Translations under genes and position numbers: made by a program
Assembly: GCA_029260715.1 (NCBI GenBank)
Contig: JAJDCS010000023.1
Span: forward strand, 1 to 64,000
Reading direction: 5' to 3'
Source of the DNA: Phycisphaeraceae bacterium
Lineage (GTDB): Bacteria; Planctomycetota; Phycisphaerae; Phycisphaerales; Phycisphaeraceae
DNA: 64,000 nucleotides
The notes under the pieces: generated by a model
Told to the model about the DNA's origin: nothing
Database searches by the model: none
Seen by the model: the letters and a program-made list of their open reading frames with translations, nothing else
Shown: positions 8,065-46,675 of the stretch, piece after piece
How the letters are laid out: each line of letters opens with the position of its first letter
Numbering within the stretch: the stretch's first letter is position 1

Positions 8065-8101
8065 GATTAAGATTCCTTCCGCTCCACAGGGTTTGTGTGT
8101 C

Positions 8102-8116
8102 GCAAATTAAAAGCCG
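8102..8116 (-). promoter_or_regulatory. Candidate sigma-54 (-24/-12) promoter of PEP-CTERM gene
   Basis: On the minus strand the sequence CGGCTTTTAATTTGC has GG and GC in exactly the register of the TGGCAC-N5-TTGC consensus. Three positions of the -24 box differ. The predicted start of transcription is near 8091, leaving a leader of about 27 bases with a good Shine-Dalgarno before the ATG at 8064. Sigma-54 control of PEP-CTERM genes through PrsK/PrsR is known in other bacteria. This single match is suggestive, not proof. Confidence 0.4.
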
Positions 8117-9521: not shown

Positions 9522-9569
9522 TGTCCTCCTTTGATCTATTTACAAGGGCAAAAACACACAAAATTAATA

Positions 9570-10799
9570 TCAGGGGATAATCACCGGCGTCGGCAGCGGC
9601 ACGATGAAGCTGTTGCGGTACCCGTGTTTCGACTTGAAGAGAAAGATAATCTCGTCCTTAAAGTTCCACGCACCGATGACGATGTAGTCCGGGTCCATCG
9701 CCATCAGGTCTTCCGGACTGACCACGGGGATGCGCACGCCCGGGCACAGCAGCCCCTGTTTGCGCGGGTTCGCGTCGCCCACGGCGCTCATCAGGTCGGT
9801 CCCCACACCGCAGTAATTCAGCATCGTCATGCACTTGGCCGCCGCGCCGTACCCCACCACACGTTTGCCCTGCTTGGCTAGCTTCTCCAACAGGCCCACA
9901 AACGCCTCGCGCTGGTGCTTCACCGCCTCGGCGAACGGCTGCCACCCCTCGGGTGTGTTGAGTTGGATCATCGATTCGAAATCAATAAAAGCCTGGTCCG
10001 CCCGCGGGGTCGGCGACCGCTCGTGCTTGATCTCGCACAAAAGCGATCCGCCGTTCATGTTGACGAATGTGATATCGGTGATCTTCATGCCGAACCGGCG
10101 CATCAGGTTCGACACCGACCCGACCGTCAGGTACGACAGGTGCTCGTGGAAAACCGTGTCGTATTGCAGCTCGTTCCTAAGCATGAACGCGTAGGGCACC
10201 TCAAGCACCAGCACCCCGTCCGGGGCCAGCAGCTTCTGTATCCCAGCCACCAAGTCTTGCAGCTCACACGAGTGCCCCAACACGTTCCTCGCCACCATCA
10301 CGTCCGCCGGGCCGTGTTCCTTCAGGACGCGTTCGACCACAGCCACCCCGAAAAAATCGCGGATCGACGGCAGGCCTTGCGCGTTGGCTTCCACCGCGAG
10401 GTTCGACGGATCGACACCCAATATGCCAAACCCGGCATCTCGGTAGTGCCGCAAGAAGAACCCGTCGTTGCTAGCGATTTCGACTAAAAAAGATTTCTCT
10501 TTGTGGTGGTGACGCTCGCGTAGTCGCTGCGAAAACCACTGGGCGTACTTCTTGACCGTCTCTGATGTGGACGTAACCCACAGGTATTGGCCAAAGAGCT
10601 TCTCGCGCGGCACCTCTTCCATAATCTGGATCAAGCTGCACGCCTTGCACATCACCAGCGTCAGGCTCTCGGTGAACCGGTCTTCGGTCGACGCGTTGTC
10701 CCCGACAAACGCATTGGCCAGCGGCAGCTTGCCCATGTCAAGCAGCACCGCGTAATCGGTGCTATCACAACCGCGGCATGTATACGGCCCGTGACTCAT
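9570..10799 (-). CDS. NDP-sugar C-methyltransferase (Methyltransf_13/14 type)
   Basis: 409 aa from the ATG at 10799, which has a GAGGAG Shine-Dalgarno; the previous gene ends 10 bases earlier, so the longer frame to 10853 is less likely. The N-terminus has CRGC and CKAC pairs typical of the zinc-binding domain of sugar C-methyltransferases. A SAM motif (LVEIASNDGFF) follows at about 95. The C-terminal third is a Methyltransf_14-type domain with GYGAAAKCMTMLNY. Relatives methylate carbon 3 of 4-keto-6-deoxy sugars (TylCIII, NovU type). It sits directly behind a CDP-glucose 4,6-dehydratase, so the likely substrate is a CDP-4-keto-6-deoxyhexose and the product a branched-chain sugar for the EPS. 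The exact sugar is inferred. Confidence 0.85.
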   Translation of the reverse strand: MSHGPYTCRGCDSTDYAVLLDMGKLPLANAFVGDNASTEDRFTESLTLVMCKACSLIQIMEEVPREKLFGQYLWVTSTSETVKKYAQWFSQRLRERHHHKEKSFLVEIASNDGFFLRHYRDAGFGILGVDPSNLAVEANAQGLPSIRDFFGVAVVERVLKEHGPADVMVARNVLGHSCELQDLVAGIQKLLAPDGVLVLEVPYAFMLRNELQYDTVFHEHLSYLTVGSVSNLMRRFGMKITDITFVNMNGGSLLCEIKHERSPTPRADQAFIDFESMIQLNTPEGWQPFAEAVKHQREAFVGLLEKLAKQGKRVVGYGAAAKCMTMLNYCGVGTDLMSAVGDANPRKQGLLCPGVRIPVVSPEDLMAMDPDYIVIGAWNFKDEIIFLFKSKHGYRNSFIVPLPTPVIIP

Positions 10800-30145: not shown

Positions 30146-31174
30146 TTATAGCGCCAACGCGCGGAAACGGATGCTCCCGTAAATCAACCCCGCGCAGACC
30201 ACTGCCTGCCGCATGGCCATGGCCACCGCCCGCGCCACCAGCTTCGGCACTCTCGCCACTGAAAACCCCGTGCCGCCGATCGTCATCGTCCATAGCAGGT
30301 ACGGCAGTGTCAGCAACAACAACCACACGCTGCCCGCAACCCCCAGCACCAAACCCGTAATCAGCATGTAAAACAGCGCATTCTCCTTGAAAACGAACAC
30401 CCGCCAGTGCAGCAAGCAACGCCGCAACTCGGGGTGACGCTTCACCAAAGCGGGGATCACATAGTAATTAAATGGGTTAAGCAGCCAATCGGTCGGCCGC
30501 TCGTTCTGCACCTCGTGGTAAACGATCATCTCAGGAACAAACACGTTGCGCGACCCGCTCTTCTTGACCCGCCAGGCCAAGTCGGTGTCGGCGCATTCGT
30601 TGCGCATCTTGCGGAAATCCTGGAAGCACAGGCCCTGGTCAAAACCGCCCAGTTCAAGAAACGCGCTTTTTCGGTAAACGATGTTCGCCGTGGGATACGT
30701 CGGGTGCTCTTCGAGCACGCGCATACTCGTGCGCGTGAGAAAACCGACTCTCTCACCGGGCTTGAAGTGTACCGGCCCCGTGACGAACCCCACGCCGTCG
30801 TCGGCCATCGCGGCCAAGGCCAACTCCAGCCACCGCGCACACGGAGCACAGTCGCTATCGGTAAACGCCACGATGCCCGCCGCCGCAAGCCCCACGCCCG
30901 TGTTGCGAGAGTGCGCCGGGCCGTTGTTCTCTTGCATCCGGTGGTACACCATCTTCACCGGCGACTCACGCTGCATCTCCTTAACCAGATCGGGCGTGTC
31001 GTCCGTGGACAGGTTGTCGACAACGATGACCTCAAACGCAGCGGGGTCGAGCGTCTGCGCCCACAGCGCATCGATCAGCTCGCGCAACTCGCGGCTGCGG
31101 TTGCGCACCGGCACCACCACCGACACACGCACCCCGTCGCTCGCGGGCGTGGCTGGTCCAGCCGCCCCGGTCAT
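30146..31174 (-). CDS. Glycosyltransferase family 2
   Basis: 342 aa from the ATG at 31174, which overlaps the upstream gene by ATGA. GT-A motifs are VSVVVPVRNRS, VVDNLSTDDTPD, FTDSDCAPCARW and ADTDLAWRVKK. Two hydrophobic stretches lie near the C-terminus. The last residues (GSIRFRAL) match the GT2 at 8544-9521, and the two share the same plan, so they are probably paralogues. Donor unknown. Confidence 0.88.
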   Translation of the reverse strand: MTGAAGPATPASDGVRVSVVVPVRNRSRELRELIDALWAQTLDPAAFEVIVVDNLSTDDTPDLVKEMQRESPVKMVYHRMQENNGPAHSRNTGVGLAAAGIVAFTDSDCAPCARWLELALAAMADDGVGFVTGPVHFKPGERVGFLTRTSMRVLEEHPTYPTANIVYRKSAFLELGGFDQGLCFQDFRKMRNECADTDLAWRVKKSGSRNVFVPEMIVYHEVQNERPTDWLLNPFNYYVIPALVKRHPELRRCLLHWRVFVFKENALFYMLITGLVLGVAGSVWLLLLTLPYLLWTMTIGGTGFSVARVPKLVARAVAMAMRQAVVCAGLIYGSIRFRALAL

Positions 31175-31818
31175 CGGATGAACACCCTGTAAAGCCAACC
31201 CGGTATGAAATCTCGGTGGCGGTTGAGGATCGCACCGAGGACCGTGATTTTCTGATTGGCCAAGTCCCGACGCACCCGGTCGATCATCTCGTACCGCGTC
31301 TTGCCCGCCTGCACCACCAGCATCATATTGGGCAGCACAGCCCCGGCGATCATTGCGTCGGCGTAGACCAACACCGGCAGCGCATCGACCAGCACAATGT
31401 CATAAACCTGCTTCGCCTGGTCCAGTGTGCGTCTCAGGGCAGCGTCCACGGGGGTCAAGCGGCCGTTGTCGCCCGTGTGGTCCGAAGCCGTCACCACCTC
31501 CAGCCCGTCGGGGCATACCTGCACACACTCGTGCAGGGGCACGCCCGCCGCGATCGATTCGATCGTCTTGTCATAAGCCGGGAGCTTGAGCGCCGCACGC
31601 ACCGCGGGTTTCTTCCTGCTCATCTCCACCACCAACGGCCGCAACCCGAACGAAGCACGCAACTCGCGAGCCACGTGCAGCACCGCGGTCGTTGTCCCTT
31701 CACCGCCCCGCAGCCCCGCGAACAGGACCGCGTCGATGCGCTGCTCGCGCACCGCGTTGAATAGGAACATCGCCGCTCGACGGAAGCTCTCAGTGATCGC
31801 CTCGGGCGCGTTCGACAT
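31171..31818 (-). CDS. Small BY-kinase-like ATPase (CpsD/CapB type), degenerate P-loop
   Basis: 215 aa. The fold matches the cytoplasmic BY-kinase/ParA-like domain: AVREQRIDAVLFAGL, then a Walker A position reading GGEGTTTAV, then IVLVDALPVLVYAD (Walker B) and VLGAILNRH. The invariant P-loop Lys is replaced by Thr (about residue 42), and the Walker A' Asp region reads VVEMSRKK. The C-terminus lacks the Tyr cluster of active kinases. Its start overlaps the end of the Wzz-like gene, the usual CpsC-CpsD pairing. It may be a regulatory partner that no longer phosphorylates itself. Confidence 0.78.
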   Translation of the reverse strand: MSNAPEAITESFRRAAMFLFNAVREQRIDAVLFAGLRGGEGTTTAVLHVARELRASFGLRPLVVEMSRKKPAVRAALKLPAYDKTIESIAAGVPLHECVQVCPDGLEVVTASDHTGDNGRLTPVDAALRRTLDQAKQVYDIVLVDALPVLVYADAMIAGAVLPNMMLVVQAGKTRYEMIDRVRRDLANQKITVLGAILNRHRDFIPGWLYRVFIR

Positions 31819-33346
31819 CTGTGGCTGACTCCAGAATTAGATCGACATTTCTAGGGTGGCGCCGCCAATAGTCGAGGCGCTTGTGGACGGGGACCACGGT
31901 GACGACGGGCGCGTGCAGGTGTTTCTCAATCGCCTCGGAGGTGTACACGCCGTGATCGAAGAACTCCGCCAGCACCGCCCACGACCCGGCGGCCAACACC
32001 CCGAAAACCAACGCCAACGCCAGCAGGATCGACTTGCTGACCCCCACCGGCAGCAGCGGGTTGACCGCGCGTTGGATCACCGAGACGCCACCGACTTGCT
32101 TCCGCCCCAACGCCACAATCGCGGACGCCTCTTGGAGCTTGTCTTGATTAAACAGGTAATCCTGCTCGCTGATTTTCGCGTCACGCACCAGCGACTGCCA
32201 GACGACCTCCGTGTCGTGCAGGTCGCGCAGCGATGCCTCCAGTTCAACGAGGACCGTCTTCTGCGACTCGTAGACGTGCTCTTTCTCGGTCAGCACAGAC
32301 CGCAGGTGCGTCGCCGTCAGCGCCATCAAAGCCTTGAACTGGTCGCGGTTGTTCTCGATGCGTACGCTATCGTCGAGTTCGACCATGCGCAGCTGCTCGC
32401 GCTGCCGCTGCAAGGCTGCCATCTCTTGCTGGAGGTTCGCAGGGAAAGAGTTGGGGCTAAACTGCCCGATGGCGGCGAAATCGGGGTTGGGCTTGGCTAG
32501 CTCCTTATCAAGACGGCCCACTTTTGATTCCGCCTCGTCCAGTTCGATCTTCGCGTGACGCGTGTCGGTTTGTGCCTGGGCGATCTGCCGCAGCAGGACC
32601 GATTTCTGCTCGGCGAAGTTGGTGATGCCGTGCCGGCGTTCGAACTGGTGCAGTTCATCCTGGGCGCGGGTGAGTTCATCGAGTGATTGCCGCCGCTGCT
32701 CTGTAAAAAACTCAACCGCGCTAGCGTCTTGAAAAATCTTGAGCCTGAACTCGAGGTACGAATCGAGAATCTTATTAAGAATGAAGCGGGCCTCTTCGCG
32801 TCCGGGGTAGATCAGGTGCACGGCGATGACATTCGACGCGGCCTTGGCCTCGACCTTGACGCCTCTCTCGAGCATCCACCTCGCCGCGTCACGCGGGGGC
32901 AGCGCTTCGCGGACGCCCAGGGTGATCAGCGTGTCCTTGTACCAAGTCTTGACGCTCTTGATCCCCTGCTTGACGTCGTACCGCAAGCCGGAAATAAACG
33001 ACGTGGGGCGGGGCGGCGGTGCGGACGGCTTATCAAGACCCAGCCGCTCGACTATGCCCTCTAGTAGCTGGGCGCTGTTAAGGATGTCCACCTCCGAGTT
33101 CACGTCTTGGATGCGGTTGGCGATGATGTTCGGCCGATCGCCCAAGACCGTGGTGGGAACAGCTTGCTCTTGACCAAGCTTGACCAGGACCTTGGCGGTG
33201 GCCTGGTAGAGGTCTTCACGCAGTATGAATAAGTAGAACAACGCCGAAAAAATGGTGACCAGGAAAATCGTCAACAACCACCACTTGCGCTTGAAGACGA
33301 TAAACATCAGATCGCGTAGCGATGTTTCAAGCCCAGAGGGATCCAT
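31790..33346 (-). CDS. Chain-length determinant (Wzz/GumC-like)
   Basis: 518 aa. An N-terminal helix (about 22-42) and a C-terminal helix (about 430-455) flank a large periplasmic region with long coiled-coil segments (about 215-340) typical of GumC/Wzz proteins. RAVNPLLPVGVSKSILLAL before the second helix is the Pro-rich family motif. It controls the chain length of the polymer together with the Wzy-like polymerase. Its 3' end overlaps the BY-kinase-like gene by 29 bases. Confidence 0.88.
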   Translation of the reverse strand: MDPSGLETSLRDLMFIVFKRKWWLLTIFLVTIFSALFYLFILREDLYQATAKVLVKLGQEQAVPTTVLGDRPNIIANRIQDVNSEVDILNSAQLLEGIVERLGLDKPSAPPPRPTSFISGLRYDVKQGIKSVKTWYKDTLITLGVREALPPRDAARWMLERGVKVEAKAASNVIAVHLIYPGREEARFILNKILDSYLEFRLKIFQDASAVEFFTEQRRQSLDELTRAQDELHQFERRHGITNFAEQKSVLLRQIAQAQTDTRHAKIELDEAESKVGRLDKELAKPNPDFAAIGQFSPNSFPANLQQEMAALQRQREQLRMVELDDSVRIENNRDQFKALMALTATHLRSVLTEKEHVYESQKTVLVELEASLRDLHDTEVVWQSLVRDAKISEQDYLFNQDKLQEASAIVALGRKQVGGVSVIQRAVNPLLPVGVSKSILLALALVFGVLAAGSWAVLAEFFDHGVYTSEAIEKHLHAPVVTVVPVHKRLDYWRRHPRNVDLILESATDVERARGDH

Positions 33347-33493: not shown

Positions 33494-34198
33494 TCACCCG
33501 TCCAGATTCGGCATCCAGGGCGTCTTGCCCAACTGGTACATCTGCTCTATTTCCTGCTGGTCTTTGTAGGTGTCCATCGATTTGAAAAAACCGTCGTGGC
33601 CGTACGCGTAAATCAGCTTGTGGTTGACCAAGCCAGGCAGCACGTGCTTCTCCAAGTTCGTCCCTTCCCAGTGATCAAACACCGCCTTGTCGAACACGAA
33701 AAAACCAGCGTTGATCCTGTAATCGCGTAGGACCGGCTTCTCTCTAAACGCGCCGACCCGCCCCTGGCCGTTCATCTCGATCGTGCCGTACTGCGAGACC
33801 AGCGGCACGCTCGTCACCGTCGCCAGCCCGTCATGCGCGTTGTGGAACTCAAGAAGCTTGTCGATCCGCACGTCAGACAACCCATCGACATAGGTGGCCA
33901 TGAACTGGTCGTCGAGTTGATCGCTCAGGTTCTTGATCCGCCCGCCTGTGTCCGTGTCCTCACCCGTGTCGATAAACTGCACGTCCCAATCAAGCCGCTT
34001 CTTGTCGAAGTAATCTAAAATCACTTCCTTCCGGTACCCCAGCGACAGGATAAACCGGTTGTAGCCCTGCGCGGCGAAGATCTGCATCACGCGCACCAAG
34101 ATGGGCTTGCCCGCCACGGGCATCATCGGCTTGGGCAGGTACTCGGTATAGGGGTACGCGCGGGTACCTTTTCCACCACAAAGAATCACGACTTGCAT
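33494..34198 (-). CDS. rfbF: Glucose-1-phosphate cytidylyltransferase-like nucleotidyltransferase
   Basis: 234 aa. ILCGGKGTRAYPYTEYLPKPM is the nucleotidyltransferase signature in its RfbF-like form, and its catalytic Arg is present. IDTGEDTDTGGRIKNL, TYVDGLSDV (metal-binding Asp), VGAFREKP and GFFVFDKAVFD follow in the order expected for RfbF. It should make CDP-glucose from CTP and glucose-1-phosphate, feeding the RfbG homologue 21.5 kb away. It is slightly shorter than typical RfbF (about 257 aa). A UTP-type enzyme is possible but less likely with rfbG present. Confidence 0.85.
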   Translation of the reverse strand: MQVVILCGGKGTRAYPYTEYLPKPMMPVAGKPILVRVMQIFAAQGYNRFILSLGYRKEVILDYFDKKRLDWDVQFIDTGEDTDTGGRIKNLSDQLDDQFMATYVDGLSDVRIDKLLEFHNAHDGLATVTSVPLVSQYGTIEMNGQGRVGAFREKPVLRDYRINAGFFVFDKAVFDHWEGTNLEKHVLPGLVNHKLIYAYGHDGFFKSMDTYKDQQEIEQMYQLGKTPWMPNLDG

Positions 34199-34381: not shown

Positions 34382-35167
34382 TTAATTGCCGTCGGTGTCA
34401 CCGAATATATACGTGACACTAAGATTCTTTGAGATCGGCACGAGCTTGTCGATGTACTCGTTAACAAACTGGTTGAGCTTGGCGATGCGCGACTTGGGCA
34501 CAAAGACAATATCCCGTGAAGCCAACAACACGTCGCTGCCTTTGCGAGGCTCCGTCAGCCGCTCGTTGAGGTTGAGCACCATAAACCCCGGGGTCGCGTC
34601 CCCGTTGTCCCGCAACACCACGATGTTGCGAGGCTCAGCCGAGTCGGTGAACCCCCCCACTTCCATGATCGCCTGGAGCGCTGTCAGCGGGCCTCGCATC
34701 ACCACCGACCTTGGCGTGCGAACCTCCCCGCCGACGTAGATCTTTTGCGGCGAGAAGCCCGTGACGATCACCGCCAACTCCGGGCGCCGCAGCCGCGCGG
34801 CGTACCGCTGGGTAAGCAACTCGCTAAGGTCAGCAGGCGTGCGGCCCGTGGCTTCGATCTCGCCGACGCCACGCAGCGCGATCTTGCCGTCAGGACGGAT
34901 GGGGACTTCCTGGTCGTACTCCGAAGCGTACGTAAATTTTACTTCCAGCACATCACCAAACTGCAACCGGTAATCCGCGCCGGCTTCGGGCAAAGGCGAC
35001 GGCTCTGTAATATCCGACGACGCCACATCGTCGCTGACAAACTCGGGGTTCCCCCCGGTCTCACAGCCCGACAAGCCAAGCGCCGCCAGCCCCAAGAGCC
35101 AAACAGCCGCGAGCCGTTTACACCGGCCGGCTTGAGCTAAAACATATTGTAAAAACAGACCTGTCAT
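34382..35167 (-). CDS. Polysaccharide export outer membrane lipoprotein (Wza-like)
   Basis: 261 aa. A signal peptide ends in LGLSGC, a good lipobox with the lipidated Cys at about residue 34. A Poly_export domain follows (YRLQFGDVLEVKF, about 65-77) and an SLBB-type segment (KIYVGGEVRTPRSVVMRGPLT, shown here in part). It is much shorter than E. coli Wza, as in many GumB-like proteins. It should form the outer-membrane channel of the EPS export path. It is the first gene of the minus-strand run that continues with rfbF and the Wzz-like gene. Confidence 0.88.
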   Translation of the reverse strand: MTGLFLQYVLAQAGRCKRLAAVWLLGLAALGLSGCETGGNPEFVSDDVASSDITEPSPLPEAGADYRLQFGDVLEVKFTYASEYDQEVPIRPDGKIALRGVGEIEATGRTPADLSELLTQRYAARLRRPELAVIVTGFSPQKIYVGGEVRTPRSVVMRGPLTALQAIMEVGGFTDSAEPRNIVVLRDNGDATPGFMVLNLNERLTEPRKGSDVLLASRDIVFVPKSRIAKLNQFVNEYIDKLVPISKNLSVTYIFGDTDGN

Positions 35168-35689
35168 ACGAATACCGGCTTACTGAAATAAAGTTCAATC
35201 CCCCCTCTGTCGAACCACGGATTCCCGGCATTGAAGGCATTTGCCGTATCGGCGCATCCCGCTCACACCGCCCGAAGTGCCGCTGTTGGCACAAACTTAA
35301 TGATATAGGCCGGTTCGGAAGAATTCCACTTTCTTTATCCGCCCCGATTTGTACGCTGTGCGGCGGGTATTCGTAGCGGCATAGCGCCATGCTGCCGCTG
35401 CTCATGTGCACCCCAACCCCGTTTAAACCCTTTTCAGCGGTGTATATCAACACACACCACCATCCATACCCAAATTATATCGCCATCGCGTTGGAGATGA
35501 GAAATAAAAAACGGAAAAAGTGGTAAAATCCTCGGTTCGGCACATAGAATCACACGTTTTATGGGGGGAGCTTCGGCATCGCCTCGATACCGATAAACGT
35601 GCGATTATTCTTTGATTGACCTTGTAGCAGGCCCGGCCAGGCCCATGCGGCAGTTCGGCGCCCTCTGCTTAGCATCACGGAAACGACCG
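35168..35689. promoter_or_regulatory. Divergent intergenic region (wza-like / gmd)
   Basis: About 520 bases between the start of the Wza-like gene and gmd. A+T-rich parts with a TAAAAT hexamer (35524-35529) could be a -10 for the plus strand, but no good -35 is at the right distance. The reading frame of gmd can be extended upstream to a TTG at 35612, which lies in this region. No RNA element was recognised. Confidence 0.35.
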
Positions 35690-36697
35690 GTGCAGAACAC
35701 AAAAAAGAGACGCGCCCTGATCACCGGCATCTCGGGTCAAGACGGCTCATACCTGGCGGAGCTGCTTCTCGAAAAGGGTTACGAAGTACACGGCCTGGTC
35801 CGCCGCGTGGCGATCGAAGACCCTAGGCACCGCATGTGGCGGATCAAGCACCTGCTGGGGGACATCGAGCTGCACTCCGTCTCATTCGAAAGCCACCCCA
35901 GCCTGTACAAAGCGATGAAACGGGTCCAGCCCGACGAGTGTTACCACCTCGCAGCCGAAAGCTTTGTCAGCTACGCCCTGGGCGACGAATTCGCGGCGTT
36001 GAACTCAAATATCAACGGCACGTACCACGTCCTGTCTTCGATCCAAGACGTCTGCCCTCAATGCCGCGTGTACTTCGCCGCGTCCAGTGAGATGTTCGGG
36101 GAAGCCAGAGAGGTGCCCCAAAACGAAGACACCCCCTTTTACCCGCGGTCGGCCTACGGCATCTCGAAAACCACGGGTTACCACCTCGCCCGGATCTACA
36201 GAGACACCTACGGGTTCCACATCACCTCGGGCATCCTCTTTAACCACGAATCGCCGCGGCGGGGCCACGAATTCGTCACACGGAAAATCACCCACCACGT
36301 CGCTCAAATCGTCACGGGAAAAGCCGACAAGCTGCCACTGGGCAACCTCGAGGCCAGGCGAGATTGGGGCCACGCCGCGGACTACGTCCGGGCCATGTGG
36401 CTGATGCTCCAACAGGATCAACCCACCGATTACGTGGTGGCTACCGGCCAGACACACTCGGTGCGCCAGTTCTGCGAACTCGCGTTCAGCGCCGCCGGCC
36501 TGGATTACCAAGACTACGTCGTCGCCGACCCAAGGTTCTTCCGCACAGCCGAAAAGAGAGAGCTCCGAGGCGACGCGTCAAAAATCCACCGCCTTCTGGG
36601 CTGGAAGCCAAGCTATCAATTCGAAGACATTGTTAAGGAGATGGTCCAGCACGACATCAAGACGGCTAAAGAAAACACGCCAAACCCAGCCTCTTAA
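35690..36697 (+). CDS. gmd: GDP-mannose 4,6-dehydratase
   Basis: 335 aa from a GTG at 35690 with GGAA 7 bases upstream; the frame could start at a TTG (35612), but family members begin near ALITGISGQDGSYL, which favours the GTG. ITGISGQDGSYLAELLLEKG is the Gmd NAD(P)-binding start, followed by HLAAESFVSYALGDEF, ASSEMFGEAREVPQNE, catalytic YGISK and LFNHESPRRGHEFVTRKI, all diagnostic. It converts GDP-mannose to GDP-4-keto-6-deoxymannose, the precursor of GDP-fucose, rhamnose or perosamine. No fcl or rmd is adjacent. Confidence 0.9.
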   Translation: MQNTKKRRALITGISGQDGSYLAELLLEKGYEVHGLVRRVAIEDPRHRMWRIKHLLGDIELHSVSFESHPSLYKAMKRVQPDECYHLAAESFVSYALGDEFAALNSNINGTYHVLSSIQDVCPQCRVYFAASSEMFGEAREVPQNEDTPFYPRSAYGISKTTGYHLARIYRDTYGFHITSGILFNHESPRRGHEFVTRKITHHVAQIVTGKADKLPLGNLEARRDWGHAADYVRAMWLMLQQDQPTDYVVATGQTHSVRQFCELAFSAAGLDYQDYVVADPRFFRTAEKRELRGDASKIHRLLGWKPSYQFEDIVKEMVQHDIKTAKENTPNPAS

Positions 36698-36807
36698 GCG
36701 GATACCCGGAACACACCCAGCCCCACCCACGAAACGGCACGCCGGTGCCCGTTATGATGACCCAAACCGCAAACGGACCACCCCGACGCCAACACCAGGA
36801 CTGCTCC

Positions 36808-37980
36808 ATGAAGATCGCGATGTACTACCCGTGGGTTTACCTGAAAGCAGGCCCCGAACGCACCATGATCGAGCTGATCCGCCGCAGCCGCCACGACTGG
36901 ACCATTTTCACAAGCCACTACGACCGGGAAGGCACCTTCCCCGAGTTCAAGCAGATGGACCTCGTCGAGCTAAAGCGGGTGTCCGTCAAGCGGCGGTACG
37001 GGGCTGTGATCAAAGCCGCCACACGCATCGCCTCGACCAAGCTCGACCTCGCCTCGTACGACGCGTTGGTCATCTCCTGCGACGGGCTGGGCAGCCTGAT
37101 CAACTTCCGGAACGCGGCGAAACCGATCGCCTGCCTGTGCTTCACACCGCTGCGAGCGGTCTACGACGAAGCCTACCGTGAACGCCACCTGAAAAAATAC
37201 CGCAGGCTAAAACCCTTGTGCCTGGCGTTTGAAGCCCTGTACCGCATGGTCGATCGCCCCGCCTGGAAACGCTACAGCCACGTCTTCTGCATCAGCGAAA
37301 CGGTCAAAAAACGCGTGCTGCGAGGCCGACTCTGCAATCCCCAAGACATCAGCATCGCCTACCCCGGCATCGACGGCGACGAGATCGCCTACTGCGACAC
37401 CCGCGAGCCGTTCTTTTTCCTGCCGGGACGTATCATGTGGACCAAGAACATCGAGTTGGGCGTCGAAGCCTTTCTGAAGTGCAAAGGCAGCGACACCAAC
37501 GGACACAAACTGGTCATCGCGGGCATGGTCGACCACAAGAGCCAGCCATATTTCCAGCGGCTCCAGCAGATGGCAGGCGGCCGAAGCGACATCGATTTTG
37601 TCCAGGACCCCACCGACGACCAGATGCGCCAGCTCTACAAAACGTGCTACGCCACGCTCTTTACTGCTTTCAATGAAGACTGGGGGCTCACCCCGATTGA
37701 GGGCATGATGCGCGGCAAGCCTGTCATCGCGGTCAACCGCGGCGGGCCAACCGAGACCGTCGTCCACAATGAAACCGGCTTGCTGGCACCAGCCGACAGT
37801 GACGCTTTCTGCGACGCCATGACACAGCTCATCGCCGACCCCGACCGCGTTGAATCCATGGGCAAAAAAGCCGTCGAACGCGCAAAGCGGTTCACCTGGA
37901 CAACGTTTGTTGACCACGTCGATTCTTGTTTGGATCAGATCGCCGCGGGAGTAGCCACCGGCGCATCGCCGGTTAAGTGA
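36808..37980 (+). CDS. Glycosyltransferase family 4 (GT-B)
   Basis: 390 aa from an ATG at 36808 with AGGA upstream (the longer frame from 36745 lacks family sequence). An N-terminal MKIAMYYPWVYLKAGPERT, a central FFLPGRIMWTKNIELGVEAF and a C-terminal EDWGLTPIEGMM (EX7E-type) motif and NRGGPTETV define GT4. It follows gmd and probably uses a GDP-sugar donor. Its last 8 bases overlap the end of the convergent PGT gene. Confidence 0.87.
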   Translation: MKIAMYYPWVYLKAGPERTMIELIRRSRHDWTIFTSHYDREGTFPEFKQMDLVELKRVSVKRRYGAVIKAATRIASTKLDLASYDALVISCDGLGSLINFRNAAKPIACLCFTPLRAVYDEAYRERHLKKYRRLKPLCLAFEALYRMVDRPAWKRYSHVFCISETVKKRVLRGRLCNPQDISIAYPGIDGDEIAYCDTREPFFFLPGRIMWTKNIELGVEAFLKCKGSDTNGHKLVIAGMVDHKSQPYFQRLQQMAGGRSDIDFVQDPTDDQMRQLYKTCYATLFTAFNEDWGLTPIEGMMRGKPVIAVNRGGPTETVVHNETGLLAPADSDAFCDAMTQLIADPDRVESMGKKAVERAKRFTWTTFVDHVDSCLDQIAAGVATGASPVK

Positions 37981-39922
37981 AGAACGCCCTTGCTACGAGC
38001 CTGGCGGTTTGAAGCAGGATGTACATGTCTCGCCCCATTGACCGGGAACGGGCGTAGTCTGTGTCATGCCGGATCCATTCGTGGAAACCCAAGTCGGTGT
38101 GCCCGTAGACCTGCCACGGGCCGGTCATCCCCGGCTTAACCGACAGACGCATGTCGCGCCACGCCGGGGCAAACCGCATCTCGTCCATCGTCAGTGGACG
38201 CGGCCCCACAAAGCTAAGCTCACCCTTAAGCACGTTGACAAGCTGGGGCAACTCGTCGATGCACGTTTTACGCAACACACGCCCGACGCGCGTAACGCGG
38301 GGGTCGTGCGTCATCTTGAACATGGGTCCGTCAACCTCGTTACGCGACATCAATTCCCGCTGCCGCTGCGGCGCGTCTTGGACCATGCTCCTGAATTTGA
38401 GCATGGTGAACGGGCGCCCGCCACGCCCACACCGCTTTTGCCGGAACAACACGGGGCCCGGCGAGTCGGCCTTGATCGCGATAGCCGCGACAGCCAGCAG
38501 CGGCAACGCCAACAGCAGGCCCAGCGATGAACCGACAATGTCAAACAACCGCTTGCATACCCGGTAACAAGCCCGGGCTAGGGCGCCGCGCGACGCCGAC
38601 GTAAGCCGCCCGTTATCTGAAACAAACCGGGTGAAAGAGCTTGGGGCTGTGTCTGGCGTCAAACGTGGCGTCCCGCCTGGATCGCCCGACTCTAGCACAA
38701 CCCCGGCGCTGAGCTTACGCCCCGGGGGAACCACAGACCGTGTACACAGGATGCTGCGGTCCACCCGCGCGCCCGCGGAGACACGGACGCCGGACCAAAG
38801 AATGCTGTCACTGATCGAAGCGCCGCTCATCACCGAGCAGCCGTCGCCGATCGACACGGGCCCCACAACCGAGGCGCCGGCCTCCACCCGGCAGTTCTCC
38901 CCCACAACGACCGGCCCGATCAACCGCGCCTTGGGTGACACGGTAGCGCTGCGGGCTACCCAAACACCTTGTGCAACTTCGTCGTAAGCCGATCGCCGTT
39001 GCTGGACGGGGCCGGGAAAGTTATCAAGTAGTAGATCGCGGTTCGTATCAAAATACTCCGTCAAGGTGGTAAATCTTCGGGCGCGCCCGGTCACGGAATA
39101 CGCAAAAACCGGCACCCCGAGGCGGTGCAAAAGCGGGATCAACTGCTCTTTGAGATCGAAGTGCCCGTGTTGGGGGATCATCTCAAAAACCCGCGGATTG
39201 ATGAAGTAAACACCCAGCGAAGACAGCACCGCCCGCCCCGGTTCGGGCGCGTATGGCACGCTGATACTCTCGACACGGCCGTCGCGGCTCTCGATCACCT
39301 GGTCACGGCTCTGACCGCTGTCAGCCGGCTGGACCAAAACCGTGATGCCCGCCCCTTGGTCGGTGTGAAACCGCTCGGCCTCTTGGAGGTCCAGATCGAG
39401 ACCGACCACACCGCTGTCAATCAACAAAAAGCTTGAATCACCGACAAAATCCCGGCAATAACGCAGTGAGCCGGCGGTGCCTTGGGCGACCCGCTCTTGA
39501 AAAGTACGAAAACGCGGGACGGTGGTGAGTTCAGCGTCGAAAGCCGATCGCAGCCGGTCCGCACACGGATGAACAACACCGACGTCCATAACCCCGCACC
39601 TGCGAAGAAAACCAGCCTGGTGAAACAGCAACGGCACATTCGCCAAGGGGAAAAGAGACTTGGGGTGAGAATCCGTAATCGGCAGCAGTGCGCTGCCCGT
39701 GCCCCCCGCAAGGACCACCGCTTTTTGTGTGACGGTTAGAGAGTGACGACCACCGCCATGCCGACGGTGGTGTTCGGCCTGGGCCTCTTGTGGCAGTTGG
39801 ATTTGTTCGATCGCTTCACACACCGAACACGACTTTGCGTGCACAAAACCGTCGGCGGAAAGCAACTCGACACCCTTGCGCCGAGGGTGGGTATCCGTGA
39901 TGTTGTCCGTCTGGTACCGCAA
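37973..39922 (-). CDS. Fusion: nucleotidyltransferase-like + hexapeptide + initiating phosphoglycosyltransferase
   Basis: 649 aa as called from a TTG at 39922; the true start is uncertain because no good Shine-Dalgarno is seen. Residues 66-300 look like a sugar-phosphate nucleotidyltransferase, but the signature reads GGTGSALLPITDSHPK without the catalytic Arg, the metal-binding Asp region reads LLIDSGVVG, and the EKP motif is absent. Residues 320-410 are left-handed beta-helix repeats. Residues 455-649 are a WcaJ/EpsE-type bacterial sugar transferase: one helix, then RLFDIVGSS, LFRQKRCGRGGRPF, KFRSM, DELPQLVNVLKGELSFVGPRP and KPGMTG. The C-terminal enzyme should start the repeat unit on undecaprenyl phosphate. 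The N-terminal part may bind a nucleotide sugar without making it. Confidence 0.85.
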   Translation of the reverse strand: MRYQTDNITDTHPRRKGVELLSADGFVHAKSCSVCEAIEQIQLPQEAQAEHHRRHGGGRHSLTVTQKAVVLAGGTGSALLPITDSHPKSLFPLANVPLLFHQAGFLRRCGVMDVGVVHPCADRLRSAFDAELTTVPRFRTFQERVAQGTAGSLRYCRDFVGDSSFLLIDSGVVGLDLDLQEAERFHTDQGAGITVLVQPADSGQSRDQVIESRDGRVESISVPYAPEPGRAVLSSLGVYFINPRVFEMIPQHGHFDLKEQLIPLLHRLGVPVFAYSVTGRARRFTTLTEYFDTNRDLLLDNFPGPVQQRRSAYDEVAQGVWVARSATVSPKARLIGPVVVGENCRVEAGASVVGPVSIGDGCSVMSGASISDSILWSGVRVSAGARVDRSILCTRSVVPPGRKLSAGVVLESGDPGGTPRLTPDTAPSSFTRFVSDNGRLTSASRGALARACYRVCKRLFDIVGSSLGLLLALPLLAVAAIAIKADSPGPVLFRQKRCGRGGRPFTMLKFRSMVQDAPQRQRELMSRNEVDGPMFKMTHDPRVTRVGRVLRKTCIDELPQLVNVLKGELSFVGPRPLTMDEMRFAPAWRDMRLSVKPGMTGPWQVYGHTDLGFHEWIRHDTDYARSRSMGRDMYILLQTARLVARAFFT

Positions 39923-40542: not shown

Positions 40543-40626
40543 CGGGTCTAGTTGAGGGCTCACAGTTGACAACAATCAGAGTTACATTCAGATCAATCTT
40601 CCAGTCCAACCGACTATAATGTGGTG

Positions 40627-42087
40627 ATGTATAACCAGATAGGCCGCCACACCATCCGTTCGTGGGCCGGTGCGCGCCAATCGGGCTTCAGACCGATCGT
40701 GTCGGTCTGCGCCGTGTTGGTTGTCGCTGTGGGCTGTCACCAGGACAAACCCACGCTAACGAACCCGATCCCCCTACCCGACACCTTTTCGCATAGCGGC
40801 ACTGCGCCGGTTCAAGCCGTGTGGTGGGAAAGTTTTGACGACACCGGCCTGCATCGGGCCATAGCGATCGCCTTGGCGGATAATCTCGATCTGCGCGGCG
40901 TATGGGACCGTTTGTCCCAAGCCGAGGCCGTGGCGCGGCGCGAGGGGGCGGGCCGGTACCCGGGCGTGGATTTTGTGGCCGGGGCCGGGCGAACGGGCCA
41001 GCGGCTTAGCGGCAACACGTCTCACACCGGCAGCTTCCTCTTAGGACTCGCGGTGGAATACGAGGTCGATCTGTGGGGGCGGGTCCGTTCGGCACATGAA
41101 GCGGAGCGTTACAACGTGGCCGCCACGGAGTGGGACGTCCAAGCCGCGGCGCTGTCGCTCAGTGCCTCGGTCGCCACCGCGTGGTACCGCCTGGCCGAAG
41201 CATCCGCACAGGTCAATGTCCTAAGCGAACAGGCCCAAACGAATCGCGAATTGCTCGAACTCGTCACCGAGCGTTTCCGGCAGGGTCAGGTTCAGGCAGC
41301 CGATGTCTTGCGACAACGCCAGTTGCTCGAATCGACACAGGGGCTGCAATCGTTGGCCCAGCAGGACCGGGCGGTTTTGCAACACCAATTAGCGGTGCTG
41401 CTAGGCCGACCGCCGACCGATGAATTGAATATGCCCCAGCCCGCCCTTGTCCACGCAGCGCCGCTGCCGCGAACGGGTATCCCCGCGGAGTTGCTGCAGC
41501 GTCGCCCCGATGTGCAAAGCGCCCGGCTCGGTGTCCTGGCCACCGACCGACGCATGGCGACAGCCATACGCAACCAGTACCCGCGCATCAGCCTAGTCGG
41601 CGACCTGCAAACCGGCGGCAGCCACACACGCGATCTGTTCAACAATTGGCTTGCGAGCCTGGCGGCGAACCTTGTCCAACCGCTGTTTGACGCCGGCCGG
41701 CTCGCCTCCGAGGTCGATCGCCACCGGGCGTTGGTGTCCGAAGCGATCCATCAATACGGCCTGGCCATCCTGACCGCGTTGCGGGAAGTGGAAGACGCCC
41801 TATCCTCCGAGTCTTATCAGACGATCTACCTGTCCAGCTTGGACGAGCAACTCAAGACCGCTGACGGGGTCATCGAACGCACCCGCGCCAGCTACCTCAA
41901 CGGCCAACTCGATTACCTGCGCGTACTCGACGCGGTCACCAGCCGCCAGAGCCTCGAACGCGAACACCTCCGCGCACGCTTGGTGTTGCTGGAGTTTCGT
42001 ATCCAGTTACACCGTGCGCTGGCCGGCCCGATATCCATCAACCGGCCCGACTTGGCCACACTTGAAGAACCGATTGACGCACCGTGA
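40627..42087 (+). CDS. RND outer membrane factor (TolC/OprM/NodT family lipoprotein)
   Basis: 486 aa from the ATG at 40627 (a GTG at 40621 is an alternative). The signal peptide ends in VVAVGC, a lipobox, so it is a lipid-anchored outer membrane factor as in the OprM/NodT group. Long helical repeats follow (SEQAQTNRELLELVTERF about 195-212, LLQRRPDVQSARLG about 295, RASYLNGQLDYLRVLDAV about 420-437). It forms the trimeric channel of the pump. The next gene starts inside its stop codon (GTGA). Confidence 0.9.
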   Translation: MYNQIGRHTIRSWAGARQSGFRPIVSVCAVLVVAVGCHQDKPTLTNPIPLPDTFSHSGTAPVQAVWWESFDDTGLHRAIAIALADNLDLRGVWDRLSQAEAVARREGAGRYPGVDFVAGAGRTGQRLSGNTSHTGSFLLGLAVEYEVDLWGRVRSAHEAERYNVAATEWDVQAAALSLSASVATAWYRLAEASAQVNVLSEQAQTNRELLELVTERFRQGQVQAADVLRQRQLLESTQGLQSLAQQDRAVLQHQLAVLLGRPPTDELNMPQPALVHAAPLPRTGIPAELLQRRPDVQSARLGVLATDRRMATAIRNQYPRISLVGDLQTGGSHTRDLFNNWLASLAANLVQPLFDAGRLASEVDRHRALVSEAIHQYGLAILTALREVEDALSSESYQTIYLSSLDEQLKTADGVIERTRASYLNGQLDYLRVLDAVTSRQSLEREHLRARLVLLEFRIQLHRALAGPISINRPDLATLEEPIDAP

Positions 42088-43520
42088 ATACCACCCCTTC
42101 AAAAACACCGTCCCCGGGAGTGCCCCCCGAAAGCAACGCCGATGACACCGCCTCGCGCGATGCGCCCCCTCAGCCGCCCCCGCGCCCTTTGATGCGGAGC
42201 CTGATCGCGGTCCTGCTGAAGGGCGTCTTGCCGTTGGTGATTCTCGCGGTAACGATCCTGGTTGCCCGGCTCATGATGGACACCGCGCCCCGCCCGCCCC
42301 GCCGGCCCGCCCAGCGCCACGCAAAACTGGTCGAGTTTTATGAAGCAACAGCCGCCACCCAGGCCATCACGGTTGAGGCCATGGGCACCGTCATGCCCGC
42401 CCGCCAGGTGGAACTAAAACCGCAAGTATCGGGGCCGCTCGTCTGGCTTGCGCCCCGTCTGATACCGGGTGCCTATTTCCGTCAAGGCGAACCGCTGCTG
42501 CGGATCGAGCCCCGCGACTATGAGCTAGCCACAACCCAGCGCGAACAAGACATTGGTGTGGCTGAGGCAGCGGTGGTCGAAGCCCGACGGCGTTTGGTTT
42601 TGGCAGAACGTGACTTGACCATGGAGATGGGCAGCCAGTCGGTGGCACAACGCGAGTACGACTTGCTCGGGGATCAGACCAGCGATCAAAACCGCGAATT
42701 GATCCTGCGGGAGCCCCAATTGCGAGCGGCCAAGGCCGAGGTGGAAGCCGCCCAGGCCGGGGTCAAATCAGCTCAAGCATCGCTACAAGCCTCGCACGCG
42801 AGGTTAGAGCAGGCGCGACTAGACCTGAAGCGAACCCACATCCTCGCCCCATTCAATGCCGCCGTGATGGAAAAACTTGTCGAACTAGGCGACACGGTCA
42901 CCAACGGCACACCCCTGGTCAAGCTTGTCGGCACCGACGAGTTCTGGGTGGAGTTGGCGGTGGCGATGCGCGATCTGAAATGGATCGACGCGCCCGTTGA
43001 ACCGGACCGGCTGGGCTCACCCGTGCGGCTTTATGACACGGCGGCTTGGGGCCGGGGCGTCTACCGGGAGGGCCGCGTGCTGATGCGGTTGCCCGGCGTG
43101 GACCCCAAAGGCCGGATGGCGCGCCTCCTCGTCACCGTCAAAAACCCCTTGGCGCTGGCGCAAGAAACCGCCAACACACCGCCGCTGCTGGCTGGCACCT
43201 ACGTGCGAGCCGAAATCACAGGCGGTTCAACGGAAAACGCCGTCGTGATACCGCGTGAGCTGCTGCGGGATGATGACCACGTCTGGGTTATTTCACCCGA
43301 CAGCACGCTGCAGATCCGCAGCGTCGAAGTGCTCTACCGCGGGCGTGACCGGATTATGATCACCGCCGGCCTCGATGCGGGTGAGAAGATCGTCACAACC
43401 GACCTTTCCGTCCCCGTCGAAGGGATGCCCCTCCGCACCGGGGCCGGCGACCCGGGCGACGGCGTTGCGGTCGGTTCTTCTGGGACAACGCCACCGGCAG
43501 CCAACGGGGGGCGGCCATGA
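42084..43520 (+). CDS. RND efflux periplasmic adaptor (HlyD/AcrA family)
   Basis: 478 aa from a GTG that overlaps the previous stop. A single N-terminal helix (about 36-60), the lipoyl-like start QVELKPQVSGPLVWL, a long coiled-coil hairpin rich in Glu/Ala/Gln (about 150-250), and the second lipoyl half LDLKRTHILAPFNAAV. It links the inner-membrane pump to the outer membrane factor in the periplasm. A low-complexity Pro/Gly/Thr tail ends the protein. Confidence 0.9.
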   Translation: MNTTPSKTPSPGVPPESNADDTASRDAPPQPPPRPLMRSLIAVLLKGVLPLVILAVTILVARLMMDTAPRPPRRPAQRHAKLVEFYEATAATQAITVEAMGTVMPARQVELKPQVSGPLVWLAPRLIPGAYFRQGEPLLRIEPRDYELATTQREQDIGVAEAAVVEARRRLVLAERDLTMEMGSQSVAQREYDLLGDQTSDQNRELILREPQLRAAKAEVEAAQAGVKSAQASLQASHARLEQARLDLKRTHILAPFNAAVMEKLVELGDTVTNGTPLVKLVGTDEFWVELAVAMRDLKWIDAPVEPDRLGSPVRLYDTAAWGRGVYREGRVLMRLPGVDPKGRMARLLVTVKNPLALAQETANTPPLLAGTYVRAEITGGSTENAVVIPRELLRDDDHVWVISPDSTLQIRSVEVLYRGRDRIMITAGLDAGEKIVTTDLSVPVEGMPLRTGAGDPGDGVAVGSSGTTPPAANGGRP

Positions 43521-46500
43521 CACCGTCGCTACACGACGACGACCGGCGTGGCTTCATTGCGTGGATGGTTCACCACCGCGTCACGCCCAACATCCTCATG
43601 CTTGTGCTGATCGTCGGCGGGCTGATCACCAGCACACGCATTAAGCAAGAGGTGTTCCCCGAATTCGCACTCGACACAGTCACGGTAAACGTGCCCTACT
43701 CCGGTGCCAGCCCCGAAGAAGTTGAGCAGGGCATTATCCTAGCCATCGAAGAAGCGATCCGCGGGGTCGAAGGGATCGAGGAACTCCGCGCTACCGCGTC
43801 CGAGGGATACGGCACCGTGACCGCCGAGCTCCTGGAAGGCGCCGACCGCCAGAAGTCGTTCCAAGACATCAAACAGGCGATCGACCGGATCATCACCTTC
43901 CCCGCCGAGGCCGAGGAAGCGCAAGTCATACTGAATACCCGCCACAACGACGTGCTAGACATCGAACTATACGGCGACGTGAGCGAACGGGCCTTGTCCA
44001 ACGCCGCGGAACACGTCCGCGACCGGCTGCTCCAGAGCGACCAGATTACGCAGATCGAACTGGACGGCGCCCGCGATTACGAAGTACACATCGAGGCACC
44101 GCATGAAAACCTCCGGCGGTACGGCCTAACGCTGGCCGATATCGCGACCAAGGTGCGTCAGTCGGCCCTGGAACTGCCCGGCGGAAAAATCGAGACCCGC
44201 AACGGGGAGGTCTTGTTGCGCGTCGCCGAGCGCCGGGACTGGGCCAGGCAATTCGGAAGCATCCCCATCATCGTCGCGGACGACGGGACGCTCGTCCGCC
44301 TTGAAGACATCGCCCAGGTCTACGAAGGGTTTGAAGACACCGACTACGAAAAGGCCTTCAACGGCATGCCAGCCATCGGGATCGACGTGTTCCGCGTCGG
44401 CGACCAAACGCCCATCAGCATCTCCGACGCCGCCAAGAAGTTGCTGCCGCAGATTGAAGCGGAACTGCCGCCTGGGATTAACCTCGTCCTGCGCCTCGAC
44501 GACTCGGACATCTACCGCCAGCGGCTAGAACTGTTGCTTAAGAACGCTTTCATCGGGTTGGTGCTGGTCTTGCTTCTGCTGGGGCTGTTCCTCGAATTCA
44601 AGCTGGCGTTCTGGGTCACCATGGGCATCCCGATCTCGTTTCTCGGCGGGCTGCTGTTCCTGCCGATGGTCGGGGTGACGATCAACATGATCTCGATGTT
44701 CGCGTTTATAATCGCTTTGGGCATCGTGGTGGACGACGCGATCGTCGCCGGCGAGAACATCTACGAATACCGCCAGCGTGGGATGGGGCTGATAGAGGCA
44801 GCCATCCGCGGCGCCCGCGACATCGCCGTGCCCGTCATATTCGCGATCCTCACAAACGTGGTCGCGTTCTCGCCCCTGCTGTTCGTGCCGGGCTACATCG
44901 GTAAGACATGGAAAGTCATCCCACTGGTCGTCTGCACGGTGTTTTTGATTTCACTGTTCGAGGCGCTGTTTATCCTGCCCTGTCACCTGGCGCACATCAA
45001 AAGCGAGGGCCGCACGGCATTCACACGCGCGCTGCACCGCCGCCAGCAGGCGTTCAGCGAGCTGGTGCGGCGGTTCATTTACGGCGTGTACGGCCCTTTT
45101 CTCCACCGCTGCCTGCGCTACCGCCTGCTATCGGTCGCGATCGGCGTGGCAACGCTGATCCTCACACTTTCCTATGTCGCCTCCGGGCGGCTGGGTTTTA
45201 TCCTCATGCCGCGGGTCGAATCCGATCGCTCCGTGGTCACGGCGACACTGCCGCTTGGTAGCCCAATCACAAGCGCCCGGCGGGTGTGCCAGGCCCTGAT
45301 CGCCGCAGGGCAACGCGTTGTGGAGGCGCACGGCGGCGATCGGTTATCGACCGGGGTGTTTACGGAGATCGATAACAATATCGTCGAAGTCGTGTTTTAC
45401 CTGACCGACCCGGACACCCGCCCGATTTCCACAATGGAGTTCACGCGGCTGTGGCGAGCCCAAACCCCACCCCAGCCCGACGCCTCTTCAATGCGATTCG
45501 AGTCCGACCGCGGGGGGCCGGGGTCGGGCGCCGCGCTGACCGTCGAGCTGAGTCACCGCAGCATCGACACACTCGACCACGCCGCCGCCTCGCTGGCTGA
45601 CCGCCTGGCACAGTTCGCCGTGGTCAAAGACATCGACGAAGGGTACAGCCCCGGTAAGCGTCAACTGAGCTTCAAGATCACACCCGAAGGCGAGAGCCTC
45701 GGGCTGACCGCCGAAAGCCTAGCCAGCCAAATCCGTAACGCCTTCCAGGGCGCCCGCCCGATCCGCCAACAGCGAGGCCGCAACGAAGTCACCGTCAGGG
45801 TCCGCCTGCCCGAATCGCAGCGGGTCAACGCCTATGACCTTGAGCAGATGATTGTGCTGACACCCGACGGCGGCCACGCGCGGCTGATGGACGTCGCCTC
45901 CGTCGGGCACGGACGCGCGTTCACCACCATCGAACGCCGCGACGGGAGACGAATCCTGACCGTCACCGCCGATATCGATCCGATCGGTGAATCCGCCCGC
46001 GTCCAAACAGAGCTTGATACCGAAATTCTGCCGCAACTGGCGATGGAGATGCCAGGCCTAACCTACGGTTACGAAGGCAGGCAGGCGGCGTTCCAGGACA
46101 GCTTCCGCGCTCTGATTAACGGCTTCGGCATGGCGATGTTAATTATCTATGTCCTGCTAACCATCCCGTTCCGAAGCTACGTGGAGCCGCTGATCGTCAT
46201 GCTCGCGATACCGTTCGGCTTTGTCGGCGCGGTGCTCGGCCATCTGCTGATGGGTTACAACCTCTCGATCATCAGCATCATGGGCATCGTGGCGCTGAGC
46301 GGCGTGGTGGTCAACGACTCGCTCGTGCTGATCGACTACACCAACCGATTGCGTCGTCAAGACCGGTTGACACCCGCCGACGCGATCCACCAAGCCGCCG
46401 TGCGGCGGTTCCGCCCAATTTTGCTCACCACGCTCACCACGTTCGGCGGCCTGGCGCCGATGATCTTCGAGACCTCCCGCCAGGCTCGGTTTATGATCCC

Positions 46501-46675
46501 CATGGCTATATCGTTAGGCTACGGCATTCTTTTTGCGACCTTTATCACGCTGCTGATCTTGCCGTGCCTGTACTTGTTGCTGAACGATGTGATGCGCGTC
46601 TTCCAGGCCCTCGGCGGCGCGATCGACGCACGGACCGCCGACGGTAGATACGACCTACCCCAAGAACAGATTTAG
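43517..46675 (+). CDS. RND efflux transporter, AcrB/MmpL-like inner membrane pump
   Basis: 1052 aa, the usual size for this family. Twelve transmembrane helices are expected; visible ones include the AFIGLVLVLLLLGLFLEF helix and the TM4 segment GIVVDDAIVAGENIYEY, whose paired Asp residues form the proton relay. Two large periplasmic domains (porter halves) and GVVVNDSLVLIDYTN in the second half support the assignment. It pumps drugs, metals or lipids using the proton gradient. Its ATG overlaps the adaptor's stop. The substrate cannot be read, and no regulator is adjacent. Confidence 0.92.
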   Translation: MTPSLHDDDRRGFIAWMVHHRVTPNILMLVLIVGGLITSTRIKQEVFPEFALDTVTVNVPYSGASPEEVEQGIILAIEEAIRGVEGIEELRATASEGYGTVTAELLEGADRQKSFQDIKQAIDRIITFPAEAEEAQVILNTRHNDVLDIELYGDVSERALSNAAEHVRDRLLQSDQITQIELDGARDYEVHIEAPHENLRRYGLTLADIATKVRQSALELPGGKIETRNGEVLLRVAERRDWARQFGSIPIIVADDGTLVRLEDIAQVYEGFEDTDYEKAFNGMPAIGIDVFRVGDQTPISISDAAKKLLPQIEAELPPGINLVLRLDDSDIYRQRLELLLKNAFIGLVLVLLLLGLFLEFKLAFWVTMGIPISFLGGLLFLPMVGVTINMISMFAFIIALGIVVDDAIVAGENIYEYRQRGMGLIEAAIRGARDIAVPVIFAILTNVVAFSPLLFVPGYIGKTWKVIPLVVCTVFLISLFEALFILPCHLAHIKSEGRTAFTRALHRRQQAFSELVRRFIYGVYGPFLHRCLRYRLLSVAIGVATLILTLSYVASGRLGFILMPRVESDRSVVTATLPLGSPITSARRVCQALIAAGQRVVEAHGGDRLSTGVFTEIDNNIVEVVFYLTDPDTRPISTMEFTRLWRAQTPPQPDASSMRFESDRGGPGSGAALTVELSHRSIDTLDHAAASLADRLAQFAVVKDIDEGYSPGKRQLSFKITPEGESLGLTAESLASQIRNAFQGARPIRQQRGRNEVTVRVRLPESQRVNAYDLEQMIVLTPDGGHARLMDVASVGHGRAFTTIERRDGRRILTVTADIDPIGESARVQTELDTEILPQLAMEMPGLTYGYEGRQAAFQDSFRALINGFGMAMLIIYVLLTIPFRSYVEPLIVMLAIPFGFVGAVLGHLLMGYNLSIISIMGIVALSGVVVNDSLVLIDYTNRLRRQDRLTPADAIHQAAVRRFRPILLTTLTTFGGLAPMIFETSRQARFMIPMAISLGYGILFATFITLLILPCLYLLLNDVMRVFQALGGAIDARTADGRYDLPQEQI

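Follow-up and report, generated by a model that had tools for sequence, protein, structure and literature searches.

Why an enzyme that initiates a polysaccharide should carry, on the same chain, a nucleotidyltransferase-like domain that appears to have lost its active site is the question raised by a gene of a Phycisphaeraceae bacterium (assembly GCA_029260715.1, contig JAJDCS010000023.1). The stretch analysed, hereafter the window, comprises 64,000 nucleotides of this contig (positions 1 to 64,000), and the gene, at 37973-39922 on the minus strand, joins a nucleotidyltransferase-fold domain and a left-handed beta-helix to an initiating phosphoglycosyltransferase (PGT). How bacteria decide when to commit undecaprenyl phosphate to a polysaccharide is not settled, and little is known of the regulatory parts of PGTs. 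The original prediction for this gene held that its head domain may have become a sensor or scaffold that binds a sugar nucleotide and gates the first step of exopolysaccharide (EPS) synthesis. Alignment gives good support to the loss of the active site: in 19 fused copies, drawn from two phyla, several essential residues have disappeared jointly.

The fusion gene and its head domain

No stop interrupts the 649 codons of the minus-strand frame, 39922 to 37973, and a Pfam search of each domain bore out the predicted three-part architecture. The NTP_transferase family (PF00483) matches residues 67-249 (39014-39727, minus strand) with 48.1 bits against a cut-off of 21.2. The beta-helix repeats expected behind it are present and prove to be of the left-handed hexapeptide kind (38699-38986, minus strand); Hexapep (PF00132) exceeds its cut-off there, and LbH_EIF2B (PF25084) matches residues 319-412 with 48.4 bits, under its cut-off of 54. 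The monotopic PGT catalytic domain, Bac_transf (PF02397, 208.7 bits), occupies residues 457-643 (37985-38581, minus strand) and matches the WbaP and PglC structures by sequence. In NCBIfam, the PGT part is closest to TIGR03025 and the head domain to a mannose-1-phosphate guanylyltransferase model, both under cut-off. The Asp-Glu pair of the IDELPQ segment (38252-38257, minus strand), known as the catalytic dyad of monotopic PGTs, is invariant in all 13 fusions of alignment A2, and the PGT active site of the fusions looks intact in sequence. The N-terminal domain of unknown function (DUF) of large, WbaP-type PGTs (PF13727) gave no match in the fusion at E 1; the protein is also without a four-helix membrane bundle, and its single transmembrane-like hydrophobic segment is located in the PGT part. 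Since the first ~65 residues match no Pfam family and contain only TTG and GTG as in-frame starts, the true start codon is uncertain.

Homologues were searched for in four sets of genomes: 392 from the window's phylum, 395 from the phylum of a metagenome-assembled genome (MAG) deposited as Deltaproteobacteria, 397 from the window's class, and 55 from a further class. Full-length fusions recur in 19 copies in 18 genomes, seven copies in the window's phylum and 12 in the other, which excludes a frameshift or mis-assembly joining two genes, a possibility that the original prediction had itself raised. The same fusion is found outside the window's phylum as well; full-length relatives include one of 39% identity in another family of the window's order and one of 38-39% identity in the Deltaproteobacteria-labelled MAG. 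Two copies cut by contig ends, L044 and a second copy of genome G664 in two pieces, are not counted among the 19.

The active-site columns of the head were read against active enzymes from the same genomes. In the window protein, the degenerate signature loop GGTGSALLP (39680-39706, minus strand) has Ala in the column of the catalytic Arg, and the EKP motif is absent, with Pro in the Lys column, both as predicted; the second metal-Asp column holds Arg, and the Lys of the PKP motif is retained. The degenerate first metal-Asp segment, FLLIDSGVVGL (39398-39430, minus strand), is likewise present and has Val in the critical column (Gly when read without a gap). The Asp of LID, two residues ahead, may be the first metal Asp of the window protein in a shifted position. 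Even so, the Arg, EKP, and the second Asp are gone, and neither the Arg nor the second Asp was found displaced.

These losses extend to the 19 fused copies and to 20 copies of a stand-alone dead paralogue described below, one of which, L180, breaks off at the signature. Among the fused copies, only L071 still has the signature Arg, the other 18 having lost it; of the 19 readable stand-alone copies, 17 lack it and L134 and L179 keep it. The EKP Lys is missing from every fused copy, and the PKP Lys is kept in 10. The first metal Asp is lost in 13 fused copies, two of which have Glu instead, and kept in six; the second is lost in 18 and kept in L088. Both are lost in all 20 stand-alone copies. 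All 39 dead domains, fused and stand-alone, retain the two nucleotide-loop glycines, and 38 of the 39 have Asp-x-Lys-Glu at the place of the Asp-Phe-Ser-Lys of GMP-pyrophosphorylase-type enzymes. In the window, this new motif reads D-L-K-E-Q-L (39140-39157, minus strand) and replaces the D-F-S-K-D-L of active GMP-pyrophosphorylases. Residual catalysis, by rearranged residues or as another transferase reaction, could be read into a new motif that replaces the old substrate-site residues and into the first metal Asp of six fused copies. However, sister proteins differ in which of the Arg, the two Asp, and the two Lys they have lost, a pattern that a conserved chemistry would not permit, and the head is eroding in many relatives; we regard such catalysis as highly improbable.

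In the nucleotidyltransferase tree, a single branch (support 100/99) parts 40 dead heads from 14 active ones, which fits one loss of activity for all dead heads; this tree does not date the fusion. The active references number only 14 because 16 extra reference loci gave no signature-bearing frame and were omitted. The head of the window protein adjoins the stand-alone group (support 96/80). Three fusion-bearing genomes of the second phylum also contain frames of 849-870 residues (L148, L156, and L161) that start with an intact-signature nucleotidyltransferase and a beta-helix, followed by a long C-terminal part.

Modelling suggests that the fold of the dead head and beta-helix is retained. 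The model of the window protein has a predicted local distance difference test score (pLDDT) of 80.9, and over its first ~380 residues it aligns with eIF2B-epsilon (Z 34.8, 3.4 A, 357 residues). Further matches at Z 34.8-32, tied or nearly tied, are plant VTC1, ST0452, tlr0611, and GMPPA/GMPPB (7d72 chains), and GMP pyrophosphorylases are also among them.

Stand-alone paralogues and eroded heads

By sequence comparison, and in a wider pattern that the original prediction had missed, the same dead domain occurs in relatives whole, separated as a gene of its own, or eroding. An eroded-type PGT was scored in the window's class when a match of E <= 1e-80 started in the head or helix part, and a stand-alone dead copy at E <= 1e-75. 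An eroded-type PGT is present in 90 of the 397 genomes of the class, a stand-alone copy in 86, and both in 72 (Fisher p = 3e-47, a value that takes no account of kinship and does not test independent events). At these cut-offs, 18 genomes have the eroded PGT only and 14 the stand-alone only; in the two of the latter that were opened (G1100 and G1075), an eroded PGT is present on the same contig. All 74 pairs that share a contig have the stand-alone gene upstream and in the same orientation, at a distance of 0.5-4.6 kb. In a set of 20 neighbourhoods of eroded-head PGTs, a stand-alone nucleotidyltransferase-beta-helix gene lies upstream on the same strand in 19; the twentieth contig begins at the PGT, and the stand-alone gene is on another contig of that genome. 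A Wzz-kinase gene stands between the two in all five loci whose gap was read, and a Wza-type gene directly follows the eroded PGT in 12 of the 20. Outside the class, the two genes are adjacent in genome G169. At locus L134, likewise outside the class, a stand-alone copy that retains TR in its signature directly precedes an eroded-head PGT (9394-10668 and 7688-9553, minus strand). Genome G039 has a 340-residue dead stand-alone (L185) whose contig also bears, some 6 kb away, another eroded PGT (L021).

Many stand-alone matches in the class (31 of 98) sit in frames of at least 630 residues. In the two such frames that were tested, L182 (15682-17682, minus strand) and L183 (13907-15814, minus strand), the stand-alone dead copy is joined C-terminally to an exosortase (PF09721).

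Profile-profile comparison of the heads, made without the beta-helix, connects these forms. The stand-alone head matches the full dead head at E 2e-51, and the full dead head matches active enzymes at E 3e-39; the eroded head matches the full dead head at E 4e-12 over 206 columns and active enzymes at E 5e-7. The best of twenty column-shuffled controls reached E 0.048. The eroded-type PGT L168 was modelled with pLDDT 80.4 and a predicted template modelling score (pTM) of 0.54; its eroded head matches a GMP pyrophosphorylase (Z 21.1, 4.6 A, 297 residues, 13% identity) and its tail WbaP (Z 22.2, 165 residues). PGTs of ~480 residues in the window's own family and order (L011-L034) carry a head that is eroded further still, together with a remnant of the beta-helix. 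The head remnant of the window-family PGTs matches the eroded head at E 7e-9 and the full dead head at E 0.0035, which alone is not significant, so these remnants are linked only stepwise; 14 of the 21 PGTs entered this comparison, seven having been dropped as the pattern missed their beta-helix. That the window's genome has the full form and its family remnants may reflect transfer or differential loss.

Most genomes with a full fusion (16 of 18) gave no stand-alone copy. The two others are G1127, which has a full fusion, two stand-alones, and an eroded PGT, and G965, in which the stand-alone is represented by two contig-end pieces that were not joined, the head on C36 and the beta-helix with an exosortase on C24. 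Two further candidates were rejected as stand-alone copies, C197 of G1000 being a GlmU-like frame and C172 of G664 a piece of its second fusion.

A graded erosion series, ending in some window-family PGTs that retain only remnants, could also mean that a once bifunctional enzyme has no use any more and is slowly decaying towards loss. Against such decay stand the ratios of nonsynonymous to synonymous substitution (dN/dS, Nei-Gojobori). Fused heads were measurable in two pairs, with 0.16 for the dead head against 0.15 for the PGT part in L078/L079 and, near saturation, 0.08 against 0.10 in L076/L114; the head of a third fused pair was saturated. Eroded heads gave 0.09-0.11 and stand-alone heads 0.04-0.08. 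With dN/dS well below 1, the dead domain is not free to drift and is under purifying selection, and stand-alone dead copies persist as separate genes in the 86 class genomes counted above. Slow decay is therefore very unlikely. Together with the new conserved D-x-K-E motif, the low ratios support the view of the original prediction that the domain was turned to another role and is kept for a job.

The job of the dead domain and its locus

What this job might be is suggested first by where conservation lies. The most conserved positions of the dead family, G85, G88, D193, K195, and E196, are at the old substrate site. Because the nucleotide-loop glycines are kept and a new, nearly invariant motif has arisen at that site, a ligand is favoured over a bare scaffold on sequence grounds, without this being proven. 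A purely structural role, in which the dead domain and beta-helix merely dimerise or position the PGT and sense no ligand, would agree with the use of the beta-helix and head domains of this fold as oligomerisation surfaces in GMPPA/GMPPB, eIF2B, and AGPase. It would also agree with the eroded relatives: their beta-helix is far more readily detected by profile than their head, and in the L168 model this eroded head is still folded. Conservation that peaks at the substrate site and not in the core alone speaks against it, and we consider a pure scaffold possible but somewhat unlikely.

We tentatively prefer, at a little less than even confidence, to see the dead domain as a nucleotide- or nucleoside diphosphate sugar (NDP-sugar)-sensing and oligomerising module of polysaccharide initiation that acts in cis or in trans. 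The N-terminal half would be a pseudoenzyme, a GMP-pyrophosphorylase-like nucleotidyltransferase with its beta-helix that no longer synthesises a sugar nucleotide but in which the fold and some of the pocket survive. It would serve the PGT as a sensing and oligomerising module, standing where ordinary large PGTs have their membrane bundle and uridine monophosphate (UMP)-binding DUF, and commitment of undecaprenyl phosphate to polysaccharide would thereby track nucleotide-sugar supply. In many relatives of the class, the module would be supplied mainly in trans by the stand-alone paralogue of the same operon, the copy borne by the PGT eroding. The original interpretation is partly supported: analogy, with GMPPA and the DUF of WbaP, and locus context make it fair to infer that the dead domain may recognise a sugar nucleotide and gate EPS initiation; ligand binding, oligomer formation, PGT gating, and a complex of stand-alone and fused forms are all parts of the proposal that we infer.

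Several observations weigh against this sensing module. The first Asp survives in six fused copies and the Arg in L071, and a pure scaffold would account for the same data. In the window's own family, whose PGTs are the most eroded, no stand-alone copy turned up at E 1e-20, so the module is apparently dispensable. Genome G965 has its stand-alone beside a full fusion with no eroded PGT detected, and the division between cis and trans forms is hence not strict. A single origin of the fusion is not shown on the PGT tree, where the full fusions are not one group and the fused PGTs require three changes; the clade that holds all fused and eroded PGTs (64 rows) is weakly supported (88/60) and also contains a 233-residue PGT, L059.

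A more elaborate form of the sensing module, which we think doubtful, is a two-part receptor of dead nucleotidyltransferases, one on the PGT and one stand-alone or joined to an exosortase, that would read the nucleotide-sugar pool and switch the PGT, perhaps coupling it to exosortase-dependent surface attachment. The window would then hold the ancestral-looking one-piece form, which would reveal where the N-terminal domain of the PGT came from.

The genes around the fusion identify the locus, from their domain content, as an EPS locus. On the minus strand lie a Wza-type polysaccharide export protein (34382-35167, PF02563), a Wzz/GNVR chain-length protein (31790-33346, PF02706) with a kinase-like AAA_31 partner (31171-31818, under the Pfam cut-off), and a separate nucleotidyltransferase with an intact GGKGTR signature and no beta-helix (33494-34198). 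On the plus strand are a gene resembling guanosine diphosphate (GDP)-mannose 4,6-dehydratase (35612-36697, PF16363) and a GT4-type glycosyltransferase (36745-37980), which is convergent with the fusion and overlaps its 3' end by 8 bases. In the 19 full-fusion neighbourhoods, one of them cut by a contig end, a Wza-type gene comes directly after the fusion in 12 and anywhere in 15. Beside the EPS locus, at 40621-46675 on the plus strand, are genes judged from their translations to resemble outer-membrane efflux, membrane-fusion, and RND-type transporter proteins.

The intact nucleotidyltransferase of this locus invites the thought that the dead domain pairs with an active one, such as that at 33494-34198, and hands its NDP-sugar to the PGT. 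Dead/active pairs are usual in GMPPA-GMPPB and VTC1-KJC2, which are among the best structural matches. The constant neighbour in the class, however, is another dead copy and not an active enzyme, and the window's neighbouring nucleotidyltransferase has no beta-helix; recruitment of this kind is unlikely.

Comparison with known systems

In the Creative Commons-licensed literature of PubMed Central, no description of a dead nucleotidyltransferase fused to a PGT was found. The fusion itself surprises less than the erosion series and the existence of a dead stand-alone partner. The forms would line up as a natural series in which a donor-making enzyme becomes a dead appendage of a donor-using enzyme, then a separate subunit, and is finally worn away, and this series makes the sensor question directly testable. 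It also traces by sequence the origin of an unannotated N-terminal domain that PGTs carry in many genomes of one class, and links dead nucleotidyltransferases to exosortases.

The fusion shares with bifunctional monotopic PGTs (Bi-PGTs) the joining of a domain to the monotopic PGT core. It differs in that the enzyme domain so added is a dead one, whose eroded forms have a dead stand-alone paralogue beside them. A 2021 network study of monotopic PGTs reportedly treats this kind. Bi-PGTs are a described kind, with functional domains joined to the core (PMC10942596). The large monotopic PGTs WbaP, EpsZ, and WcaJ resemble the fusion in their PGT catalytic domain, their role in EPS or O-antigen synthesis, and an N-terminal regulatory region (PMC10942596, PMC12802240). 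The DUF of WbaP is reported to bind uridine nucleotides and to make dimer contacts, and UMP to inhibit WbaP (PMC10942596), and EpsW to activate the PGT EpsZ (PMC12802240). The fusion, in contrast, is without the four-helix bundle and PF13727 DUF and has a dead nucleotidyltransferase as its proposed regulatory region instead.

In the head, the fusion resembles GMPPA, also a dead nucleotidyltransferase with a beta-helix and a fold match (7d72 chains). GMPPA is reported to be non-catalytic: it binds GDP-mannose and is an allosteric inhibitor of GMPPB (PMC11228364). GMPPA regulates the synthesis of a sugar nucleotide, whereas the dead domain of the fusion sits on an enzyme that consumes one; the fusion is, moreover, bacterial and has its own D-x-K-E motif. 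The gamma and epsilon subunits of eIF2B and KONJAC (KJC2), among the best structural matches, likewise reuse the nucleotidyltransferase and beta-helix as non-catalytic regulatory subunits, but they are eukaryotic and act on unrelated targets.

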